Source: Collibacillus ludicampi (GTDB lineage: Bacteria; Bacillota; Bacilli; Tumebacillales; BOQE01). Taken from it: a stretch of DNA of 64,000 nt. The translations under genes were made by a program, and so were the position numbers. The notes under the pieces are model-generated. The model worked only from the letters and a program-made list of their open reading frames with translations, was not told the origin of the DNA and made no database searches. This document shows positions 13,217-45,238 of the stretch, piece after piece. Location of the stretch: NCBI RefSeq assembly GCF_023705585.1, contig NZ_BOQE01000001.1, forward strand, positions 2,884,710-2,948,709. Direction: 5' to 3'. Numbering within the stretch: the first letter of the stretch is position 1; each line of letters opens with the position of its first letter.

Positions 13217-13729
13217 ATGGAGAATGTATTTTTTTCTGATGTTAAGTTTTTTTATGATAAAGTTGAAATTCTTTTCAAACAACAAAAAGAACGAATTAAA
13301 GAGTTATTACCTGATGCAGATGTTCAACATGTCGGAAGCACAGCAATTCCGGGTACTATAACAAAAGGAGATTTGGATATTCAGGTTCGCGTAACTGCTG
13401 ATGTGTTTCCTGATGCTGTAAAAACATTGACTAAGTTATATGAACTTAATGACGGTAGCATACAAACGGATTGTTTCAGAGCCTTTAAGGATGACACTTT
13501 TGACCCACCATTAGGAGTTCAATTGACTGTAATCGGTTCTGAACACGATATATTTTATAAAATTAGGGATGTTTTATTAAACAACCCAATGTATAGAAAA
13601 CAGTACAATGAGCTGAAAAGGCAATATGAAGGTAAAGATATGGATGATTATAGATCGGCGAAAAGACTGTTTTTTGAAAGGTTAATGGAAACCCCTGAAT
13701 ATATAGAACTGAATAAAAAAGAAATATAA
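13217..13729 (+). CDS. GrpB/UPF0157 family nucleotidyltransferase-fold protein
   Basis: A 170-residue GrpB-domain protein. The nucleotidyltransferase-like core is visible as 'HVGSTAIPGTITKGDLDIQV' (residues 39-58), with the GS helix and the D-x-D metal pair. The tail 'YRSAKRLFFERLMETPEYI' is also typical. Family members are often small stand-alone proteins of unknown substrate; GrpB fusions with CoaE exist in other bacteria. AGGTGGGA precedes the ATG. A second copy at 32963-34870 lacks its start and is split by an IS4-type element. Confidence 0.85.
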   Translation: MENVFFSDVKFFYDKVEILFKQQKERIKELLPDADVQHVGSTAIPGTITKGDLDIQVRVTADVFPDAVKTLTKLYELNDGSIQTDCFRAFKDDTFDPPLGVQLTVIGSEHDIFYKIRDVLLNNPMYRKQYNELKRQYEGKDMDDYRSAKRLFFERLMETPEYIELNKKEI

Positions 13730-25559: not shown

Positions 25560-25849
25560 CTCCCAATCGAGCCACAGTGACTCGCGATTTCTCACTGTTC
25601 GAAACGCGCTGTGTTGGTGAAAACGAAAACCCAAGCGTGATAACAGGGGTGATCAAGATTTTTCTCTGATTTTTACATCTTTTATTAATGTTATAAAAAT
25701 TGCGAATAATTTTCCTTATCCAAGATAATGATTGTGCATATGCAGGTAATGCTTCAAGATCATAAATATTGTATACAAACTTTATTTCAGGGAATATCAC
25801 ATAATCCTTTGCGGCTAATAAGCGATGGTACAGCTAACTTTTTTACAGC
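25560..25849. other. Intergenic spacer
   Basis: No gene. 25609-25640 carries a trace of the unknown 'KTKTQA' gene end also seen at 19680 and 20070. Confidence 0.4.
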
Positions 25850-26218
25850 TTAGAAGAACATACGGCCGCCACCAAAGCCTGGTCCCACCATACCTGGTCC
25901 CACCATACCTGGCCCCACCATACCTGGTCCCATCATACCTGGTCCCATCATACCTGGTCCCACCATACCTGGTCCCATCATACCTGGTCCCATCATACCT
26001 GGTCCCATCATACCTGGTCCCACCATACCTGGTCCCACCATACCTAGCCCCATCATACCTGGTCCCACCATACCTAGCCCCATCATACCTGGCCTCATCA
26101 AGCCTGGTCTAAACATACCTGGTCCCATAGGTGCAAAAACAAGTTCTGCGTTTTCGTCTTTCGCTATTGCATTTGATTTCCTATTCACGCCTTGTTTTTG
26201 CATTTTATGCTTCACCAT
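25850..26218 (-). CDS. GPGM-repeat low-complexity protein (spore-coat-like)
   Basis: A 122-residue protein. About 30 ordinary residues with a basic start ('MVKHKMQKQGVNRKSNAIAK') are followed by about 17 copies of a five-residue unit G-P-G-M-M/V, and the protein ends in 'GFGGGRMFF'. Such Gly/Pro/Met repeats occur in spore coat and exosporium proteins, and the Met content suggests an oxidant sink or flexible filament (inference). GAGGTGACGATA places the ATG at 26218. The DNA repeat is 15 bases and should vary in number between strains. Confidence 0.75.
   Translation of the reverse strand: MVKHKMQKQGVNRKSNAIAKDENAELVFAPMGPGMFRPGLMRPGMMGLGMVGPGMMGLGMVGPGMVGPGMMGPGMMGPGMMGPGMVGPGMMGPGMMGPGMVGPGMVGPGMVGPGFGGGRMFF
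25877..26130. repeat. 15-bp tandem repeat (about 17 units)
   Basis: The unit is ACCTGGTCCCACCAT with C/T and C/A variants, in frame inside the GPGM protein. It is a candidate hypervariable minisatellite. Confidence 0.9.
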
Positions 26219-26843
26219 TATCGTCACCTCACAGATCGTTTCAAACATACTTTTTATCTTATGAACCGAAACGATTTGTGGTATAGACAAAATACTCTAG
26301 ACATCAATAGATTTGTGTGATCTGCTGGTCAGAACTTACGTGATACGCGCCGGCGGCCAGACAGTGACGCCGTTTATGGCGAAGTTGGCGCCGCCGCCGA
26401 GTATGATGAAAAACTCTTGAAACGTACTTGGTCACACGAGTGGTCACAACTACTTATAACTCGATATCAAATGTGTCGCAAAAGATGCCCGAAAAATCTT
26501 ATTTTATCAGATTTTTCTGAACCAAAAACCGTTCGATGGTATTATGAATCAAATAATTTTTTGGGTTTCCTTAACCGTGAGCAAGGTAATACAGCAGAAC
26601 ATAGCGTAAACCCCTAGCACAGTCTGCGTTTTACATTAGTTCCCTTGAAGCTTTACTTACTTGCTAGGGTACGACTGAAAAACCAGATTTTATAAGGCAT
26701 TTGAGACTTTACGATACATTCTTTGCAGGAAGGTTTTTTCCTTCCTTAAAACGATCAAGAAAAAATTGTTTTATGAACTATATAATTTGTACCATTCCAT
26801 TTGATTGTCTCTTGAATTTTCTATTATCAAGGAGTGAGTTTAG
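26219..26843. other. Intergenic with remnant of unknown gene (copy 2 of 3)
   Basis: 26340-26430 aligns with 27430-27515 ('GDAVYG' coding region followed by 'AAEYDEK'). The rest is AT-rich and without a gene, and holds the promoter region of the TTGRRR protein. Confidence 0.45.
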
Positions 26844-27311
26844 ATGGCGCGAAGAACTACCGAACGTCGCACAACGGGCCGTCGCACGACGAGTCGTCGA
26901 CGACAAGACATCGCACAACAGTTCATTAGGACCATAGTCGACGGACTACTAGACATCGCAGAACAATTCTTTAGAACCACAGGGCGTCGCACAACGGGTC
27001 GTCGCCGTACAACAGGTCGCCGACGCACAACAGGTCGCCGACGCACAACAGGTCGCCGACGCACAACGGGTCGTCGCCGTACAACAGGTCGCCGACGCAC
27101 AACAGGTCGCCGACGCACAACAGGTCGCCGACGCACAACGGGTCGTCGCCGTACAACGGGTCGCCGTCGTACAACGGGTCGCCGACGCACAACGGGTCGT
27201 CGCCGTACAACGGGTCGTCGCCGTACAACGGGTCGCCGTCGTACAACGGGTCGTCGTCGTACAACGGGTCGTCGTCGTACAACGGGTCGTAGTTCAAAGA
27301 GTCACGTATGA
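26844..27311 (+). CDS. TTGRRR-repeat, extremely basic protein (CotG-like)
   Basis: A 155-residue protein with a strong ribosome-binding site (AAGGAGTGA). Residues 1-20 are degenerate R-R-T-T units. Residues 20-48 form an amphipathic helix ('QDIAQQFIRTIVDGLLDIAE'). Residues 50-148 are 16 perfect TTGRRR hexads plus TTG, and the tail is RSSKSHV. Roughly half of the repeat residues are Arg and a third Thr. This resembles the Ser/Lys/Arg repeats of spore coat CotG, which CotH kinases phosphorylate; here Thr would be the acceptor (inference). Protamine-like DNA binding is the alternative. The array uses only CGT/CGC/CGA Arg codons. Confidence 0.75.
   Translation: MARRTTERRTTGRRTTSRRRQDIAQQFIRTIVDGLLDIAEQFFRTTGRRTTGRRRTTGRRRTTGRRRTTGRRRTTGRRRTTGRRRTTGRRRTTGRRRTTGRRRTTGRRRTTGRRRTTGRRRTTGRRRTTGRRRTTGRRRTTGRRRTTGRSSKSHV
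26989..27290. repeat. 18-bp tandem repeat array
   Basis: Units of the type CGTCGCCGTACAACGGGT with synonymous variants (CGCCGACGCACAACAGGT). About 16 in-frame copies encode TTGRRR. The mixture of two synonymous unit types in blocks suggests repeated slippage or gene conversion. Confidence 0.9.
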
Positions 27312-27638: not shown

Positions 27639-27730
27639 TGGCGGGAACGTGTGGGAATCGAACCCACCTGCGACACCCCGTGCCGCACACTCGGTTTTGA
27701 AGACCGGGAGGGAAGACCACACACGTTTCA
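27639..27730 (-). tRNA. selC: tRNA-Sec (UCA), second copy with altered 5' part
   Basis: The 3' two-thirds are a clear selenocysteine tRNA: anticodon stem CCGGT/ACCGA with loop CTTCAAA (anticodon TCA), a long variable arm, T arm GTGGG-TTCGATT-CCCAC and encoded CCA. The variable arm differs from the copy at 35870 by paired changes (GAG:CTC to GCG:CGC and GCAT:ATGT to GCAC:GTGT), so pairing was kept by selection. The 5' part is abnormal. The acceptor strand TGAAACG gives two mismatches with CGTTCCC, and the D region is five bases shorter and lacks the D stem-loop seen in the other copy. Either it is newly damaged or it is a non-standard tRNA. It has its own terminator. Confidence 0.7.
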
Positions 27731-28002
27731 CCACGTCACACAAGACATTCCACAGTCGCTATAACACCTATATTAGCTCGTTTTTGGACGAGTCTGAGTG
27801 CGTTCCTAAAGCCTTATTTTATACTAATCTAGGTGTTTTTTGAAGTTGAATTTTTTGCGTATACTAGGAAATAGCCAGAAATTATCCATCTTTCCAGTAT
27901 TTACGAATGAAAACTCATTGTTCCTATTATTACAAATGCTCTTTATATTTATCTAACAAATATGTTAAAATTGATTACGACTTTTAGTATTAGGAGGTTA
28001 AC

Positions 28003-29670
28003 ATGAAAATAAATTCGCGAGAAATGGAGTTGCTTTTGGAAGAGATTGAGAAAATTAGAAGAAGAAAGATTATGGATATGGATGAGAGCGACATTCATTA
28101 TATAGACCCTAGAAATCATCTTGCAAAAATAAAAATACATAATAATAATATCATTAGTGGTAGAAGAGGCTGTGGAAAGACTACTCTTTTACTAGCTGCT
28201 AAAAAGGAACTTAACTCAAGTGACCTTTGTATTGCTATAGATTGTCAATCAATTAGAAAACAAGACCAGAATAATATTATTATTTATATATTAAATAAAA
28301 TCTTAGAAGCAGCTCACCAGTATATTGAATCAGAATGTTATGAACCTCTTTTAATAAGAAAACGTTTTACATTTGGCAAAAAGAAAAACGATGAAGAACA
28401 AAGGAAGATTAACAGATGTGAGCTTTTTTTACATACTGTACGCGAAATGCTGTCAATTTTAGATGAGATTAAAAATCATCCTAATGAAATAACATATAAG
28501 GTTAACTATAAGCAAAGTAACAGCAATAAATCGGAATCAAAAAAAGAGACTGGTTCTAAATTAGAAAGTAAAAACCAATTAGAAGGACATTTAGACTTCA
28601 AGTACCAAAAAATCGGAATAAAACTTAATAGTATTAATAGTATTTTGCTAAATGTTTCAAATTCATCTTCGAAACTACTTACTGATGAGGAAAAAACTGA
28701 AGTTACATCAGAAGATATACGAACGATAAAAAAGGATTTGATACTTAATGATATAGTTGATAATCTTTCTCAATTGTTTACTGAATATAGAGAAATATCT
28801 AATAAAAATATAACATTATTTCTAGATGATTTTTATCAAATTCCCATTGAAAAACATCCAAGAATAATTCATTTCCTCCATGATGTTTATAAGAACTGTA
28901 AGGGCTCTGCATTCTCATTTAAGATTTGTACTCTACCAAATAGATTAAAGCTAAATTATGAAGGAGATGAGATATTATCTCCCAAAGATGACTTTTCTAC
29001 TATAAATCTAGATAGAAACTTATCTGAACTAGATAGTCTTAAGCAATATTTATTGGAGATTATATGTTCTATAAAACAAGAACTACACTTGCAAACTAGA
29101 GAAATTGAACAATTATTTAGTTCTGATGAGACTTTATTGTACCTGATAGTGGCATCTGGCGGAGTACCTAGAGATTTTTTACTGATGTTTAGAGATGTTA
29201 TTGAAATCGCAAAAATTAACTCAAAAGAAACTGTTGGTAAAGTAGAAATTTACTCTGTAGTAAACGAATTTAGAAAGGATAAAGACGAAAATATCGAAGT
29301 AGATACCGATATTACTCCCGAATTGATAGAAGAGGCAAAAAGTAAAATTAAATCCGAGATAGTTGATAAATTGAATACCAATGTTTTCTTATATCCACAT
29401 TCGCTATTAGAACATGATGAAGCACTTCTAAGAAACCTAGTTAATTCAAGATACCTACATATAATCAAGGACTCTGTATCATCAGAAAATAGAAAAAAAG
29501 AAATGTTTACTGCTTATCTAGTGGATATGAGCTTTTATATAAATGGAAAGCAATTAAAGAGGAATTTTAAGTTTAGAGAGTTTTGGAAAAAGGATAATGA
29601 ATCAAGATTTAAAGATATTGATTCTGCTCCTATTTGGGCATTTTCAAAAAGTTCGTCATCAAATACCTAA
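28003..29670 (+). CDS. ORC/CDC6-like P-loop ATPase, orphan accessory gene
   Basis: A 555-residue AAA-type ATPase. Walker A is 'GRRGCGKT' (53-60), Walker B 'ITLFLDDF' (270-277), a sensor-like 'FKICTLPNR' lies at about 306-314, and the sensor-2-like 'GGVPRDFL' at 386-393 is typical of ORC/CDC6-type and related STAND ATPases. A Lys/Ser-rich charged insert lies between residues 160 and 200. No helicase or nuclease motif is seen. The gene is very AT-rich compared with the backbone and lies 270 bases from a tRNA-Sec copy, the usual sign of an island gene. Proteins of this type are frequent in phage-defence islands as the ATPase of two-gene systems. No partner is present: the following 530 bases are empty and then an IS66 element begins. 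Confidence 0.8.
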   Translation: MKINSREMELLLEEIEKIRRRKIMDMDESDIHYIDPRNHLAKIKIHNNNIISGRRGCGKTTLLLAAKKELNSSDLCIAIDCQSIRKQDQNNIIIYILNKILEAAHQYIESECYEPLLIRKRFTFGKKKNDEEQRKINRCELFLHTVREMLSILDEIKNHPNEITYKVNYKQSNSNKSESKKETGSKLESKNQLEGHLDFKYQKIGIKLNSINSILLNVSNSSSKLLTDEEKTEVTSEDIRTIKKDLILNDIVDNLSQLFTEYREISNKNITLFLDDFYQIPIEKHPRIIHFLHDVYKNCKGSAFSFKICTLPNRLKLNYEGDEILSPKDDFSTINLDRNLSELDSLKQYLLEIICSIKQELHLQTREIEQLFSSDETLLYLIVASGGVPRDFLLMFRDVIEIAKINSKETVGKVEIYSVVNEFRKDKDENIEVDTDITPELIEEAKSKIKSEIVDKLNTNVFLYPHSLLEHDEALLRNLVNSRYLHIIKDSVSSENRKKEMFTAYLVDMSFYINGKQLKRNFKFREFWKKDNESRFKDIDSAPIWAFSKSSSSNT

Positions 29671-30205: not shown

Positions 30206-30289
30206 GTAAGCGTCAAATACTTCCCACCTACTAACCTCGTATTGTATTTGAGATAATCTCCTCAAGATATTCGGAGAGGAGAACTTTCA

Positions 30290-30607
30290 ATGTCCCATGC
30301 AGAATTAAGAAAAGAGTGGGAGGTACGGATCGCTGCTTTTCGGGCTAGCGGACAGAGCGCATCAGCATGGTGTAGAGCTCATCAGTTGAAGCTTCATCAG
30401 TTCCGGTACTGGCTCCGGAAGATTGAACACAAAGAAGCCGTTGTGACCCCATCATCCAAATGGATATCGGTAGAAGTGGACGGGCAGCCTGACGAGTCTA
30501 GAAACACCTTGCTCGTTAGAGTAGGGCAAGCAACCGTAGAGATCCAGCCTGGCTTTGATCCCGCGCTGCTGGCAGACGTCGTGCGAACACTCCAAACGTT
30601 ATGCTAA
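30290..30607 (+). CDS. tnpA: IS66 accessory protein TnpA
   Basis: A 105-residue IS66 OrfA-type protein with a helix-turn-helix-like N-terminus ('WEVRIAAFRASGQSASAWCR') and 'HQLKLHQFRYWLRK'. It is needed for transposition of IS66 elements; its exact role is unclear. GAGAGGAG precedes the ATG and it overlaps tnpB by seven bases, implying coupling. Confidence 0.9.
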   Translation: MSHAELRKEWEVRIAAFRASGQSASAWCRAHQLKLHQFRYWLRKIEHKEAVVTPSSKWISVEVDGQPDESRNTLLVRVGQATVEIQPGFDPALLADVVRTLQTLC

Positions 30608-30957
30608 GCGAAGCTAGCGTAGAGCGAGTGTATCTGGCCTGCGGAAGCACCGATCTACGGAAATCGATTGACGGGTTAGCTGTGCTCGTCAAGGAAGAGT
30701 TTGAACTCGACCCTTTCTCGCCCTGTCTCTTCGTTTTCTGCAATCGAAAGCGAGATAAACTGAAGATTCTTCATTGGGAACACAACGGTTTCTGGCTCTA
30801 TTACCGCCGATTAGAGAAAGGAAAATTTCAGTGGCCGGAAGAAGCGAGCGCCGTACCGTTGAAAATTAGTCGTCGGGAGTTGCGTTGGCTACTCGATGGT
30901 CTATCTCTCGAACAGCGACAAGCTCACCCTGCCGTCACTGCGCGTACGATTCTATGA
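30601..30957 (+). CDS. tnpB: IS66 accessory protein TnpB
   Basis: A 118-residue IS66 Orf2 (TnpB, PF05717) protein. The family hallmark '[16 protein letters not shown]' and '[20 protein letters not shown]' are both present. This is not the RNA-guided TnpB of IS200/IS605. The start codon lies inside the end of tnpA. Confidence 0.92.
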
Positions 30958-31027
30958 TATGTACACCCAATTAGACTTTGGGATTAAAAAAAGGAATTCG
31001 CGGTATGTTGTCGAAATCAATAGTATT

Positions 31028-32608
31028 ATGAAAAATCATACGCCGAACCCGACCCCTACTACAATTGAAGATCTCCAAAAAGAACGCGATCTGCTGAAAA
31101 ATCAAATTGCTGAACTCACTGCCAAACTGAAGTGGTATGAGGAGCAGTTTCGTCTTAGCCAACAGCGCCGGTTTGGCTCTTCGAGCGAACGAACGAATGC
31201 CGATCAGCTTGAGCTTTTTAATGAAGCCGAGGTGGAGGCCGATCCCACTGTAGAGGAGCCTACCCTCGAAACCATTACGTATCGCCGTTCGAAAAAACGC
31301 GGCCACCGGGAAACCCAGCTTGAAAACCTGCCTGTGGAGACGATCGAGTATCGCCTGCCATCTGAGGAGCAGGTTTGTTCGTGTTGCGGTGGTTCTTTGC
31401 ATGAAATGAGCACGGAGATACGGCAAGAGCTGAAGATTATTCCGGCCGAAGTCAAAGTGGTCAAGCATGTCCGTTACGTCTACTCCTGCCGCCGTTGTGA
31501 GCGTGAGGAGACAAGTACGCCGATAGTCACAGCCTCTATGCCTGCCCCCGTCTTTCCGGGGAGTTTGGCTTCTTCTTCCAGTATGGCCTATATCATGAGT
31601 CAAAAATATGTGGAGAGCATGCCTCTCTACCGACAAGAGCAACAGTTTGCAAGCCTGGGGATTGAGTTGTCTCGTCAGACCCTGGCCAACTGGATCCTCT
31701 ACGGAGCGAATACCTGGTTGAGTCTGCTCTATGATCGCATGCGCGAGCACTTACTCAAGCAGGACATTCTGCACGCAGACGAGACGACCTTACAAGTGCT
31801 CCGCGAACCGGGTCGGGCCGCACAGACGACTTCTTATCTATGGCTGTACCGCACCGGGAGAGAAGGTCCGGCCATCATCCTCTATGACTACCAGACGACA
31901 CGGGCGAGCAAACACCCGCGTCAGTTTCTTTCCGGTTTCAAAGGGTACCTGCACGTCGATGGCTATGCGGGTTACCATGGGATACCGGATGTGACCCTGG
32001 TCGGTTGTTGGGCTCACGCCCGGCGCAAATTCGATGAGGCACTCAAGGCGCTGCCTGAATCGAAGCGCTCGTCACCGGTAGCAGCCAAAGAGGGACTCAA
32101 TTTCTGCAATCAACTCTTTGCGATTGAACGGGACTTAAAGGAGTGCACGCCTGAGGAACGTTACCAAATCCGTCAAGAACGCAGCCGCCCTGTGTTGGAT
32201 GCTTTTTTGGCATGGCTACGTACCCAGAAACCGAAAGTGTTGCCCAAAAGTGCGTTCGGTCAGGCAATCTTGTATTGTCTGAACCAGTGGGAAAAATTAG
32301 AGGCGTTTTTACAAGATGGGCGATTGGAGATCGATAACAACCGAAGTGAACGCGCGATCAAACCGTTTGTGATCGGTCGCAAAAACTGGTTGTTCTCCAA
32401 TACCCCGCGTGGTGCAAAGGCGAGTGCGATCATTTACAGTATCATAGAGACAGCGAAAGAAAATGGATTACATCCCTATTTCTATCTTACCTATCTCTTT
32501 GAGAAACTACCTAACCTAGATATGAAAGACAAAGATTCCTTAGATCAGCTTCTCCCTTGGTCAGAAAGCCTACCGCTTACCTGCCGGGCTATAAAAAAGA
32601 ATACGTAA
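31028..32608 (+). CDS. tnpC: IS66 transposase TnpC
   Basis: About 526 residues. An N-terminal leucine-zipper-like coiled coil '[20 protein letters not shown]' is followed by a zinc finger with 'CSCCGG' and 'CRRCE'. The DDE transposase core has '[12 protein letters not shown]', '[13 protein letters not shown]' and '[20 protein letters not shown]'. All expected blocks are intact, so this element could move and could supply enzyme for the broken copy at 41055. ATG 31028 has no good ribosome-binding site; the frame is open back to 30896, overlapping tnpB, so translation may start earlier. Confidence 0.9.
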
Positions 32609-32674
32609 ATCATACGAAAATCCCCATCTCTTCAAATGGTGGGGATTATTTTACGCTTACTTACGCTTACTTAT

Positions 32675-32962
32675 AGAATAAATTGAACGATAGGAGGATT
32701 GATGAATGCCCGAAAAATGACCGGTCTTTTATTAATACTCTAATGAGAAAAAAATTATGGAGATTCAATGGGGAACTCTCATCTTTCAAATTATTGCTTT
32801 TATTATCATACTATTATTTTAATTCTCAGTAGTATATGGAGTTCATTTGATGATACAGAAATTTTTTTAAAAAAGAAATAAATTTAAATAAATAAATGGA
32901 TCACTCATATTCGCTAGGCTACATATGATCGAAAGATTTTACACACAAATATGGACTTGATC
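32675..32962. repeat. Duplicated block, second copy A'
   Basis: Nearly identical to 12045-12332. At ATGGACTTGATC it jumps to sequence matching 13264 onward, so about 930 bases (CMD remnant, GNAT gene, GrpB 5' end) were deleted in this copy. Its left border is the IS66 right end. Confidence 0.85.
32757..32822 (+). pseudogene. Small membrane protein gene, second copy
   Basis: Reads 'MEIQWGTLIFQIIAFIIILL' then F and TAA. It keeps the Trp lost from the copy at 12135 but is stopped at codon 22, in the middle of the membrane helix. Confidence 0.6.
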
Positions 32963-33301
32963 TTGAAATTCTTTTCAAACAACAAAAAGAACGAATCAAA
33001 GAGTTATTACCTGATGCAGATGTTCAACATGTCGGAAGTACAGCAATTCCGGGTACTATAACAAAAGGAGATTTGGATATTCAGGTTCGCGTAACTGCTG
33101 ATTGTTTTCCTGATGCTGTAAAAACATTGACTAAGTTATATGAACTTAATGACGGTAGCATACAAACTGATTGTTTCAGAGCCTTTAAGGATGACACTCT
33201 TGACCCACCATTAGGAGTTCAATTGACTGTAATCGGTTCTGAACACGATATATTTTATAAAATTAGGGATGTTTTATTAAACAACCCAATGTATAGGAAA
33301 C

Positions 33302-34733
33302 CACTAGTGTTGCATTAATTAATTCAGAATATTCTTCTATTATTTTTTTCATCTCTTAAATAAAAAAATCCTTTACAATGGAGAGGTCAGGTAGTCCTGT
33401 CCAAATCCATTGAAAGGAAATACACTTATGGACAAGGATAAGGATACCCTACTTTCGGCATTTGGTAAATGGGTTGAACCACTTTTTCAGTGTAATTTTC
33501 AAGAAAAAGTAGATCAAAACCAACAAGATAAATACGCTAAGAAGCTTACTACGAAATCTTACGTCCTGTTATTTCTGCACGCCATCTTGCAAAAACGTGA
33601 AAGTTTACGTGCCGTTGCGGCAGATATCTTGAATCCTCATATGCAAGAATTCTTGCAATTAGATTCCATCAGCTATTCGCAACTTTCACGGAAACACCGT
33701 CAGGTGGATACCGATCTACTCGCTCATCTGTTTTTTTCTTTAGTTGGAAAAATCCAATGCATGGCTGCTAACCCTGCCGGGCGGAAGCCATACAAAATCA
33801 TAGACTCAACTACGATCAGTTTATGTTTATCAAAATACCGCTGGGCGAGCTTTCGGAAAACCAAAGCGGGAATAAAAATCCACGTGAGCTTGGCATTTGT
33901 CGATCATGATGAAGTCTATCCTGAACAGATTCGTCTAACGACGGCGAAGCCTAATGACATCACACAAATGGATTCCTTGATTGATGATTCGGAAGCCATC
34001 TATGTGTTTGATCGTGGTTATGTCGATTACAAGAAATTTGATGATTATTGCCGTAGGGGAATAGGCTTTGTTACCCGTTTGAAGGACAATGCAACGTTCT
34101 ACCTTCTGGAATCTCAAGTGCTTCATGAGAGTCCTGTCCTTGCGGACACAAAAGTGTTGCTAGGATCCCCTCAAAAGCCCATGGATCACGTACTTCGACT
34201 GGTCGAGGCAAAGGATTCACAGGGCAATGACATAAGAATTATTACCAACTGTTTTGATTTGTCAGCAGAAGAGATCAGTGACATATATCGTACACGATGG
34301 GCAATCGAATTGTTTTTTAAATGGATGAAACAACATTTGAGAATCAAAACGTTTTATGGTCTCTCCGAAACGGCGGTTTGGAACCAAGTGTATCTTGCTT
34401 TGATCACCTATTGTCTGATGATTCTAATGAAGATGCAAATTCAAACTACCAAAAGCTTATTGGAGTTGCTTCGAAGTCTAAAGGCCTTCTTATGGTGCGA
34501 TTACATAGAATGGTTCAAGTACAATAGATCATCGAAAAAAAGGCGAAGGTAAGAGATCTCAGCAATGAATCGGCATGCCAGAATACAGGACAGTAACGGA
34601 ACCCTTTCTTTTTAGAATATACATATTATACCAAATGGGCGGGGCTACCTTTAACGTGCTCTGTCCTTATTTTGTTAAAATAGCATTAGATTAAAACGCA
34701 GAAAATTCAGTTATAATTTATGCAACACTAGTG
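33302..34733 (+). mobile_element. IS4-family insertion sequence with 9-bp target duplication
   Basis: 1432 bp. Terminal inverted repeats begin CACTAGTGTTGCAT on both ends. It is flanked by the 9-bp duplication ATAGGAAAC (33293-33301 and 34734-34742) inside the GrpB copy. It encodes one transposase. The clean ends and duplication indicate recent direct insertion. Confidence 0.93.
33428..34552 (+). CDS. IS4-family transposase (DDE)
   Basis: 374 residues. The N-terminal DUF4372-like region 'HAILQKRESLRAVAADI' is followed by a catalytic core with D in 'IIDSTTISL', D in 'VFDRGYVDYKKF', and the Y-(2)-R-(3)-E-(6)-K signature in 'YRTRWAIELFFKWMKQHL'. ATG 33428 follows GAAAGGAAA; the frame is open six codons upstream. 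All catalytic residues are present, so the element is probably active. Confidence 0.92.
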   Translation: MDKDKDTLLSAFGKWVEPLFQCNFQEKVDQNQQDKYAKKLTTKSYVLLFLHAILQKRESLRAVAADILNPHMQEFLQLDSISYSQLSRKHRQVDTDLLAHLFFSLVGKIQCMAANPAGRKPYKIIDSTTISLCLSKYRWASFRKTKAGIKIHVSLAFVDHDEVYPEQIRLTTAKPNDITQMDSLIDDSEAIYVFDRGYVDYKKFDDYCRRGIGFVTRLKDNATFYLLESQVLHESPVLADTKVLLGSPQKPMDHVLRLVEAKDSQGNDIRIITNCFDLSAEEISDIYRTRWAIELFFKWMKQHLRIKTFYGLSETAVWNQVYLALITYCLMILMKMQIQTTKSLLELLRSLKAFLWCDYIEWFKYNRSSKKRRR

Positions 34734-35869: not shown

Positions 35870-35966
35870 GGGAACGGATGGGGTACTGGTGTCCCTCCCG
35901 GTCTTCAAAACCGAGTGTGAGGCATGGGATGTCTCAGGTGGGTTCGATTCCCACACGTTCCCGCCA
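35870..35966 (+). tRNA. selC: tRNA-Sec (UCA), canonical copy
   Basis: A 97-base selenocysteine tRNA. Acceptor GGGAACG pairs perfectly with CGTTCCC, and the encoded CCA is present. The D region GGGG...CCC is intact, the anticodon loop is CTTCAAA (anticodon TCA), the variable arm is long (GAG-GCAT-GGG-ATGT-CTC), and the T arm is GTGGG-TTCGATT-CCCAC. It reads UGA as selenocysteine with SelB and a SECIS element. None of selA, selB or selD lies in this window. Its 3' end is duplicated at 37108, so it serves as an integration site. Confidence 0.95.
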
Positions 35967-41054: not shown

Positions 41055-41138
41055 GTAAGCGTCAAATACTTCCCACCTACTAACCTCGTATTGTATTTGA
41101 GATAATCTCCTCAAGATATTCGGAGAGGAGAACTTTCA

Positions 41139-41456
41139 ATGTCCCATGCAGAATTAAGAAAAGAGTGGGAGGTACGGATCGCTGCTTTTCGGGCTAGCGG
41201 ACAGAGTGCATCAGCTTGGTGTAGAGCTCATCAGTTGAAGCTTCATCAGTTCCGGTATTGGCTCCGGAAGTTTGAACACAAAGAAGCCGCTGTGACCCCA
41301 TCATCCAAGTGGATATCGGTAGAAGTGGACGGGCAGACTGACGAGTCTAGAAACACCTTGCTCGTTAGAGTAGGGCAAGTAACCGTAGAGATCCAGCCTG
41401 GCTTTGATCCTGCCCTGCTGGCCGACGTCGTGCGAACACTCCAAACGTTATGCTAA
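41139..41456 (+). CDS. tnpA: IS66 accessory protein TnpA (copy 2)
   Basis: 105 residues, differing from the copy at 30290 at only a handful of positions (for example 'KFEHKEAAV' for 'KIEHKEAVV'). Complete, with the same ribosome-binding site and the same overlap with tnpB. Confidence 0.9.
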   Translation: MSHAELRKEWEVRIAAFRASGQSASAWCRAHQLKLHQFRYWLRKFEHKEAAVTPSSKWISVEVDGQTDESRNTLLVRVGQVTVEIQPGFDPALLADVVRTLQTLC

Positions 41457-41806
41457 GCGAAGCTAGTGTAGAGCGAGTATATCTGGCCTACGGAAGCACC
41501 GATCTACGGAAATCGATTGACGGGTTAGCTGTGCTCGTCAAGGAAGAGTTTGAACTCGACCCTTTCTCGCCCTGTCTCTTCGTTTTCTGCAATCGAAAGC
41601 GAGATAAACTGAAGATTCTTCATTGGGAACACAACGGTTTCTGGCTCTATTACCGCCGATTAGAGAAAGGAAAATTTCAGTGGCCGGAAGAAGCGAGCGC
41701 CGTACCGTTGAAAATTAGTCGTCGGGAGTTGCGTTGGCTACTCGATGGTCTATCTCTCGAACAGCGACAAGCTCACCCTGCCGTCACTGCGCGTACGATT
41801 CTATGA
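41450..41806 (+). CDS. tnpB: IS66 accessory protein TnpB (copy 2)
   Basis: 118 residues, almost identical to the copy at 30601 ('YLAYGSTDLRK' for '[11 protein letters not shown]'). Complete. Confidence 0.92.
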   Translation: MLSEASVERVYLAYGSTDLRKSIDGLAVLVKEEFELDPFSPCLFVFCNRKRDKLKILHWEHNGFWLYYRRLEKGKFQWPEEASAVPLKISRRELRWLLDGLSLEQRQAHPAVTARTIL

Positions 41807-41876
41807 TATGTACACCCAATTAGACTTTGGGATTAAAAAAAGGAATTCGCGGTATGTTGTCGAAATCAATAGTATT

Positions 41877-43453
41877 ATGAAAAATCATACGCCGAACCCG
41901 ACCCCTACTACAATTGAAGATCTCCAAAAAGAACGCGATTTGCTGAAAAATCAAATTGCTGAACTCACTGCCAAACTGAAGTGGTATGAGGAGCAGTTTC
42001 GTCTTAGCCAACAGCGCCGGTTTAGCTCTTCGAGCGAACGAACGAATGCCGATCAGCTTGAGCTTTTTAACGAAGCCGAGGTGGAGGCAGATCCCACTGT
42101 AGAGGAGCCTACCCTCGAAACCATTACGTACCGCCGCTCCAAAAACGCGGCCACCGGGAAACCAGCTTGAAAACCTGCCTGTGGAGACGATCGAGTATCG
42201 CCTGCCATCTGAGGAGCAGGTTTGTTCGTGTTGCGGTGGTTCTTTGCATGAAATGAGCACGGAGATACGGCAAGAGCTGAAGATCATTCCGGCCGAAGTC
42301 AAAGTGGTCAAGCATGTCCGTTACGTCTACTCCTGCCGCCGTTGTGAGCGTGAGGAGACAAGTACGCCGACAGTCACAGCTTCTATGCCTGCCCCCGTCT
42401 TTCCGGGGAGTTTGGCTTCTGCTTCCAGTATGGCCTATATCATGAGTCAAAAATATGTGGAGAGCATGCCTCTCTACCGACAAGAGCAACAGTTTGCAAG
42501 CCTGGGGATTGAGTTGTCTCGTCAGACCCTGGCCAACTGGATCCTCTACGGAGCGAATACCTGGTTGAGTCTGCTCTATGATCGCATGCGCGAGCACTTA
42601 CTCAAGCAGGACATCTTGCACGCAGACGAGACGACCTTACAAGTGCTCCGTGAACCGGGCCGGGCCGCACAGACAACTTCTTATCTATGGCTGTACCGTA
42701 CCGGGAGAGAAGATCCGCCCATCATCCTCTATGACTACCAGACGACACGGGCGAGCAAACACCCGCGTCAGTTTCTTTCCGGTTTCAAAGGATACCTGCA
42801 CGTCGATGGCTATGCGGGTTACCATGGGATACCGGATGTGACCCTGGTCGGTTGTTGGGCTCACGCCCGGCGCAAATTCGATGAGGCACTCAAGGCGCTG
42901 CCTGAATCGAAGCGCTCGTCACCGGTAGCAGCCAAAGAGGGACTTACTTTCTGCAATCAACTCTTTGCGATTGAACGTGACTTAAAGGAGTGCACGCCTG
43001 AGGAACGTTACCATATCCGTCAAGAACGCAGCCGCCCTGTGTTGGATGCTTTTTTGGCATGGCTTCGTACTCAGAAACCGAAAGTGCTGCCCAAAAGTGC
43101 GTTCGGTCAGGCCATCTTGTATTGTCTGAACCAGTGGGAAAAATTAGAGGCGTTTTACAAGATGGGCGATTGGAGATCGATAACAACCGAAGTGAACGCG
43201 CGATCAAACCGTTTGTGATCGGTCGCAAAACTGGTTGTTCTCCAATACCCCGCGTGGTGCAAAGGCGAGTGCGATCATTTACAGTATCATAGAGACAGCG
43301 AAAGAAAATGGATTACATCCCTATTTCTATCTTACCTATCTCTTTGAGAAACTACCTAACCTAGATATGAAAGACAAAGATTCCTTAGATCAGCTTCTCC
43401 CTTGGTCAGAAAGCCTACCGCTTACCTGCCGGGCTATAAAAAAGAATACGTAA
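41877..43453 (+). pseudogene. tnpC: IS66 transposase TnpC (copy 2), frameshifted
   Basis: Against copy 1 there are single-base losses in an A-run and a C-run near 42143-42165, in a T-run near 43153 and in an A-run near 43229. The frame is split into 41877-42170, 42181-43218 and 43235-43453. The catalytic D residues fall in the middle piece and the '[11 protein letters not shown]' segment in a shifted frame, so no active enzyme is expected. Confidence 0.88.
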
Positions 43454-43505
43454 ATCATACGAAAATCCCCATCTCTTCGAAAGGTGGGGATTATTTTACG
43501 CTTAC

Positions 43506-44212: not shown

Positions 44213-44331
44213 CGATGAGACAGAAATCTGCCGAATCTGACATGATGTCAGTACGGGGGATATTTTTCGGGGTGAATCGCTTCAAGGCGTAGGGTACCTC
44301 TACCCGAATCCGTCAACTAACCTCGGAGGCA
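44213..44331 (+). promoter_or_regulatory. c-di-AMP riboswitch (ydaO/yuaA leader)
   Basis: The conserved blocks of the ydaO/yuaA class are present in order: ACGGGGGAT, CGGGGTGAATCGCTTC, GGCGTAGGGT, CTCTACCCGAATCCGTCA and CTAACCTCGGAGGC, directly before the ribosome-binding site of a cell-wall hydrolase. High c-di-AMP turns such genes off. Genes of this class typically serve wall metabolism or osmotic balance. Confidence 0.93.
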
Positions 44332-44344
44332 TAGGAGGAGAGAA

Positions 44345-45238
44345 ATGAAAAAGGTAAGTATGGGCTTTATCTTCACAGGCATGGTGTGCCTTGCAGCGAG
44401 TCTGGCACCGCAAGCGCATGCCGCTGCGGATTCACTGGAAATTATGGTCGATAATCAGATCGTGCAATTTCCAGATGCCAAACCATTCATCGATGAGAAT
44501 GGCCGAACGCAAGTTCCTGTTCGTTTTGTAGCCGATCAGTTGGGCTTCAAAGTCAATTGGAAGCTGGAAAACGGCTCAGTGAAAGTCATGCTGGCAAAAG
44601 ACGCAAAGTCGATCGTATTGAAGGAAGGTGAAACAGTAGCGACCATTAATGGACAACCTGTCTCTCTGGATTCGAGTGTAATGATTAAAAACGACCGGAC
44701 TTTTGTACCGCTTCGCTTTATCGCCGAATCTGTCGGCAAATACGTCAACTGGGACGAGAACCGAAACGCTGTTTCCATCTCATCGGACAAGCCGGTGATG
44801 ATGATGGCCGATGTATCACCTACTCCCTTGAAACCGGCCACACGTTCTTTGAATGACGAGAATAAACCTTCTATTACATCCCAATCTTCAAGCATGATTG
44901 CGTATGCTGAGAAATATATCGGGGTTCCGTATGTTTGGGGCGGGACAAGCCCTGACGGATTTGATTGCTCCGGATTTGTGCAATATGTGTTCAATCACTT
45001 TGGGGTGCAGTTACCGAGGACAGCTTCCGACATGTATTCTGCCGGCACTCCTGTGAGCTCTTTGCAACCCGGAGATCTGGTATTTTTCTCAACATATGCA
45101 TCTGGTGCATCCCACGTGGGTATTTACATAGGGAATAATGAGTTTATTTCGGCCACTTCCTCCCATGGCGTGAAAATCTGTAATCTCAATGACCCTTATT
45201 ACTGGGGACCACGTTATATTGGAGCGAGACGATTCTAA
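44345..45238 (+). CDS. Secreted NlpC/P60 endopeptidase with stalk domain
   Basis: 297 residues. A signal peptide is cleaved after 'AHAA'. The copper-amine-oxidase-N (stalk) region, about 30-148, has two '(V/T)(F/Q)VP(V/L)RF(V/I)A' units. After a linker comes a C-terminal NlpC/P60 domain (about 185-297) with the catalytic triad C208 ('FDCSGF'), H257 ('SHVGIYIG') and probably H274. It should cleave gamma-D-Glu-diaminopimelate cross-links in peptidoglycan outside the cell. AGGAGGAGAG precedes the ATG. It is controlled by the c-di-AMP riboswitch directly upstream and is monocistronic. Confidence 0.93.
   Translation: MKKVSMGFIFTGMVCLAASLAPQAHAAADSLEIMVDNQIVQFPDAKPFIDENGRTQVPVRFVADQLGFKVNWKLENGSVKVMLAKDAKSIVLKEGETVATINGQPVSLDSSVMIKNDRTFVPLRFIAESVGKYVNWDENRNAVSISSDKPVMMMADVSPTPLKPATRSLNDENKPSITSQSSSMIAYAEKYIGVPYVWGGTSPDGFDCSGFVQYVFNHFGVQLPRTASDMYSAGTPVSSLQPGDLVFFSTYASGASHVGIYIGNNEFISATSSHGVKICNLNDPYYWGPRYIGARRF

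Follow-up and report, generated by a model that had tools for sequence, protein, structure and literature searches.

ATPases of the ORC/CDC6 type recur in conflict systems (PMC10853773), a link that is already known (PMC10853773, PMC12839542), and those of mobile conflict neighborhoods have been reported together with partners that include HerA/FtsK and REase (PMC10853773). The cargo that prophages carry next to an integrase is known to serve as a reservoir of defense genes (PMC9122126). Here, we analyzed a 64,000-nucleotide stretch of the Collibacillus ludicampi genome (hereafter the window) in which an ORF of 555 codons encodes a further member of the already known PF24389 family of ORC/CDC6-like proteins. 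Its relatives display two architectures, one coupled with an upstream HEPN-like gene and the other solo, a split of which we found no description in a literature search drawing mostly on sources other than subscription papers and preprints. The window gene has the solo architecture, and our preferred though tentative reading is that it might encode a mobile, self-contained conflict ATPase.

The ORF (Table 1) has an intact frame, and 555 stop-free codons would arise by chance with a probability of ~1e-23 at its own base composition. Its GC fractions at the three codon positions (0.378/0.266/0.216) are as expected for an AT-rich coding gene, while promoter and terminator scans at the locus gave chance-level results only. 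The foreign composition noted in a first-pass annotation of this DNA holds: the gene has 28.7% GC vs 42.7% for the window, and of 1247 equally long sliding windows only 14 have 31% GC or less. The gene is horizontally acquired, and a single copy is present in the 4.09 Mb genome.

The same annotation had reported about 530 empty bases followed by IS66 on the 3' side and a tRNA beside the gene. The first statement is accurate, as 536 bp without any ORF of at least 60 aa, a stretch occurring once in the genome, separate the gene from the left end of IS66 at 30206. The second needs amending: the neighbor, an inverted tRNA-Sec copy, has degenerated; it scores below the Rfam gathering score and receives no ARAGORN call. 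This copy is 95% identical over 77 nt to the intact tRNA-Sec, from which it is separated by 8.2 kb of IS-rich sequence, and two further partial copies occur in the genome; the inverted pair could be the mark of an insertion or inversion. Elsewhere in the window, a GrpB-like gene (13217-13729) has a second copy (32955-33301) that is truncated at the 3' end, where a transposase element (~33302-34733) cuts it, tandem-repeat ORFs are open on both strands (26844-27311 and 25825-26290; RRTTG-type and Pro/Gly/Met repeats), and a c-di-AMP riboswitch (44219-44346, plus strand, 80.3 bits) precedes a gene at 44345 whose product resembles cell-wall hydrolases.

Table 1. Features of the ATPase gene, its product and its surroundings, in window coordinates.
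Feature	Position	Strand	Basis or remark
ORC/CDC6-like AAA+ ATPase, 555 aa, short-N (solo) architecture	28003-29670	+	PF24389; AlphaFold2 model; VIA-align Z 15.5 to 1fnn
Shine-Dalgarno sequence AGGAGG	27992-27997	+	direct reading; 5 nt before ATG
Walker A GRRGCGKT, residues 53-60	28159-28182	+	R54, R55, G56, G58 and K59 invariant in 74-sequence alignment
Predicted helical insert, strand 2 to Walker B strand, residues ~81-268	28243-28806	+	predicted model
Walker B LFLDD, residues 272-276	28816-28830	+	D275 and D276 invariant in 74-sequence alignment
Sensor-2-like GGVPRD, residues 386-391	29158-29175	+	six of six residues invariant in 74-sequence alignment
Likely C-terminal winged-helix-like region, residues 413-507	29239-29523	+	H-H-E-H-E-E order in both models
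C-terminal tail, residues 508-555, with family-conserved [RS]SAP motif	29524-29667	+	P543 99% conserved
Degenerate tRNA-Sec copy	27643-27730	-	44.3 bits vs Rfam gathering score 47
Intact tRNA-Sec	35870-35962	+
IS66	30206-32660
Second IS66 copy	41055-43505		98% identical over 2455 bp; broken frames

A six-frame search of the genome assigned the gene to PF24389 with 32 bits (cut-off 27), and 72 of the 74 sequences in the family alignment match this profile. When the window protein was submitted alone, hmmscan did not list PF24389, probably owing to its speed filters, and transitive evidence therefore matters here. We note that divergent members such as this one can escape single-protein profile scans. 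The Mad8 profile (PADLOC PDLC04140) weakly matched residues 50-292 (E 6e-4) and gave weak matches in 42 of the 74 family members; further profile searches returned weak AAA or coiled-coil matches, and phmmer against the PDB chance matches only. Single-sequence searches retrieved no more than two sequences, a plasmid protein of Paraburkholderia and a prophage fragment of Bradyrhizobium, and a single-sequence scan of genome contigs retrieved no relatives. Relatives were reached only via alignments, built from these Paraburkholderia and Bradyrhizobium sequences, with which the searches extended to ~90 relatives, on 10 viral contigs and at 80 loci in genomes of bacteria or archaea. These genomes belong to Bacteroidota, Pseudomonadota, Actinomycetota, Chloroflexota, Acidobacteriota and candidate phyla, with one nanoarchaeote; a Pantoea relative used as query gave no match in E. 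coli genomes. The family is widespread, patchily distributed, and carried by phages and islands.

An AlphaFold2 model built from the 74 sequences (pLDDT 85.3, pTM 0.85) was compared with known structures using VIA-align, where CDC6 and archaeal ORC rank first (Z 14-15.5), the top match, CDC6 1fnn, being aligned over 246 residues at 4.1 Å. Foldseek found the CDC6/ORC fold with the same model (E 1.6e-5). Lower-ranking VIA-align matches include the archaeal ATPases 2fna and 2qen, with alignments over 311-314 residues that reach residue 512-513, as well as TnsC (Z 13.0) and RdrA of RADAR (Z 12.2). Profile and fold thus both support the original ORC/CDC6-like assignment, and the Walker A, Walker B and G-x-P-R segments, already described as intact, have key residues that are invariant across the family alignment. 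Regarding a candidate arginine finger, the loop at 309-330 contains no single invariant Arg in the 74 sequences, and an Arg occurs somewhere at 309-320 in 71 of them.

The first-pass annotation had left two regions unassigned, a Lys/Ser-rich insert and the C-terminal 160 residues. The insert is real: the model places helices at 89-122, 130-158, 209-223 and 236-266, pLDDT falls below 50 at 164-196 and 219-233, and the Lys/Ser-rich stretch (~160-232) is predicted to be a disordered linker within the long helical insert. The C-terminal region can now be given a likely assignment from structure prediction, namely a winged-helix-like fold followed by a tail, residues 413-507 being modeled as helix, helix, strand, helix and two strands, in the order of a winged helix. 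Modeled alone, this domain retains a pLDDT of 84.9 and matches NLR and ORC winged-helix domains, with NLRC4 as the best match; as it reaches only Z 5.0, the assignment is likely but not firm, and Foldseek returned no match for the isolated domain with an E-value of 0.001 or lower. The window protein has no visible effector domain.

The relatives can be divided according to the position of Walker A, which in the short-N form is mostly found around residues 45 to 90 and in the 22 loci of the long-N form beyond residue 125, counted from the open-frame start. As neighboring ORFs were defined simply by their length, single neighbors may be wrong, but the contrast between the groups is large. A HEPN-like gene, belonging to one homologous group, lies upstream of the long-N ATPase in 20 of the 22 loci, mostly directly adjacent or overlapping, and a same-strand gene of at least 100 aa is found within 50 bp upstream in 19 of the 22. 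For the short-N form, such a gene occurs upstream in 5 of 54 loci and downstream in 4 of 53, and six ORFs on either side contain no HEPN gene and no recurrent adjacent gene. A recurrent partner, sought near homologs as proposed in the first-pass annotation, is thus present for the long-N form and lacking for the short-N form, which shows that being an “orphan” is the usual state of the latter rather than evidence that a gene was lost. The HEPN-like partners have a conserved RNxADY motif (e.g. L099:9168-9692 and L007:4490-5002). The usual HEPN motif is Rx4-6H, with a histidine that RNxADY lacks, and the partner may hence not be a standard HEPN RNase. In two near-identical Chryseobacterium-type loci adjoining phage-tail genes, a trypsin-like peptidase gene lies shortly upstream of the ATPase gene (L011:6915-7739 and L029:8915-9739).

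A Pfam scan of 124 immediate neighbors of short-N genes identified five integrases, two TIR genes and two RES genes, almost all remaining matches being singletons and most neighbors ordinary host enzymes. Scattered restriction-modification (R-M) and other matches in a PADLOC scan, run with no control set, are too few to claim enrichment. With neighbors that are mostly ordinary host genes, the association with defense islands is only anecdotal.

The relatives are usually more AT-rich than their surroundings, their GC lying more than 3 points below that of the flanks at 47 of the 53 short-N loci (median AT excess of 9 points) and at 21 of the 22 long-N loci (median of 13 points). Several reside in mobile elements: flanked by a terminase-like gene and a portal gene in a phage head cassette (L005), inside a Mu-like head module (L006), next to an integrase (L013), or at the end of a prophage, together with tRNA-Thr and an integrase, where the gene is split by an IS (L003). 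One directly precedes a pentapeptide-TIR gene (L004), and others are carried by plasmids: L002 is near SIR2 and R-M genes, and L106, whose plasmid is conjugative, has GMT genes and an AAA+UvrD pair nearby. Among wider relatives, one of 698 aa stands alone directly beside an RlmH-like gene (L113:4812-6908, minus strand), with 31% GC within a stretch at 46% GC, and another is found near two DNA methyltransferase-like genes. The RlmH gene is the classic attachment site of SCC elements.

These settings, together with the AT-richness, give the relatives the look of mobile cargo. Defense does not follow from that alone, and it is the combination of mobile and defense-like contexts that makes a role in phage defense plausible. 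Our preferred reading, which we hold tentatively, is a mobile, self-contained ATPase that would most likely be directed against competing phages or plasmids through ATP-dependent assembly on DNA or on an invader complex. The gene would be the cargo of a mobile element. Its product would bind nucleic acid or an invader complex via the winged helix and the helical insert, load ATP as a putative switch, and assemble into an oligomer that would block the DNA metabolism of the invader or halt the cell, without any co-encoded effector. Points that speak against this reading are the lack of a visible effector domain and of an invariant arginine finger, the mostly ordinary neighbors of short-N genes, and the divergence of the window protein described below, whose function may differ. 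The broader proposition that short-N ORC/CDC6-like ATPases are true single-gene defense or exclusion systems, disabling invader DNA without a nuclease or other effector, is possible but somewhat doubtful.

Mobility could also mean that the ATPase serves its own element, as a replication-initiator, helicase-loader or transposition-target protein (ORC-, TnsC- or MuB-like) that the element left behind. The fold, which matches both ORC/CDC6 and TnsC, and the presence of relatives in phages, on plasmids and near integrases are consistent with such a service. However, no transposase, relaxase, helicase or primase recurs next to the relatives, the genes of L005 and L006 belong to the head cassette and not to the replication module, and many copies are solitary genes surrounded by those of the host, so that we regard this explanation as unlikely.

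A quite unlikely explanation is that of a decaying family member no longer under selection. In its favor, the window protein is a singleton at the end of a very long branch (3.79) in a quick tree, it carries a 3-residue insertion present in no other aligned member, and its surroundings are IS-rich and rearranged. It also deviates at near-invariant family positions (Q285H, D290H, D481N and R540D), position 290 being D in all 73 other members and column 540 R in 96% of the family. Judged from the alignment, these changes caution that the window protein may be in decay or may have acquired a different function and, given the length of the branch, its function may differ from that of the family. 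Against decay stand the full-length frame, the ATPase motifs, all intact, the good ribosome-binding site, a codon-position GC typical of an AT-rich coding gene and the high-confidence model.

The first-pass annotation had offered two options, a lost partner or a single-gene system, and the evidence favors the latter. Derivation of the gene from the two-gene HEPN-ATPase form by loss of the HEPN partner would accord with the frequency of HEPN-like genes upstream of long-N relatives, and an AU test does not reject the window protein within the long-N group (p 0.61). We nevertheless consider the loss of a HEPN partner very unlikely. The window protein lacks the long-N extension, which puts more than 125 residues ahead of Walker A, as its own Walker A starts at residue 53 and the open frame counts 558 codons, only 3 beyond the 555. 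No candidate HEPN ORF lies directly upstream, and a PF05168 search across the host genome gave no match. Interruption of a partner gene by IS66 was also considered and rejected, since no frame across the junction of the joined flanks stays open for more than 80 codons; no clean target duplication was found around the element. With no HEPN gene found in the genome and no broken neighbor restored by removing IS66, a lost partner is unlikely, and since most short-N relatives stand alone, the window gene probably never lost one. The quick tree places the protein on the short-N side (SH-aLRT 97), which favors the same conclusion. A firm short-N placement by the tree was dropped in view of the AU test: this is a highly divergent protein on a very long branch, and as the tree leaves its class unsettled, we argue the class from architecture only.

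An ordinary housekeeping ATPase is extremely improbable, as we found nothing to support it and, far from the single-copy core gene in a conserved housekeeping operon that the first-pass annotation had envisaged for this case, the gene is a lone copy of foreign composition outside any operon, with no full-length relative in 13 other genomes of the same order, one partial match in a same-class sample of 399 genomes and one further strong match in a same-phylum sample of 398.

Compared with known systems, the window protein shows partial and weak profile likeness to Mad8 of MADS, and no mad gene set was apparent among the neighboring ORFs. RdrA of RADAR and the STAND ATPases share a related AAA+ fold (Z ~11-13), but the window protein has no adjoining partner gene and none of the STAND-type C-terminal superstructure-forming repeats or sensor beyond the winged helix, ending at residue 555 after the winged-helix-like domain and tail. 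With the ORC/CDC6 ATPases of mobile conflict neighborhoods (PMC10853773), it shares the ATPase clade and the mobile settings, whereas neither the window gene nor its short-N relatives have a common partner. Should the solo form protect its host, a replication-initiator-like ATPase would by itself constitute an entire immune unit, with no effector. The HEPN-coupled long-N pair has the same ATPase core and C-terminal region as the window protein and differs by ~75 to 130 additional N-terminal residues and the upstream HEPN-like gene; were the solo form protective, this contrast between solo and HEPN-coupled forms within one family would make the question of the effector directly testable.
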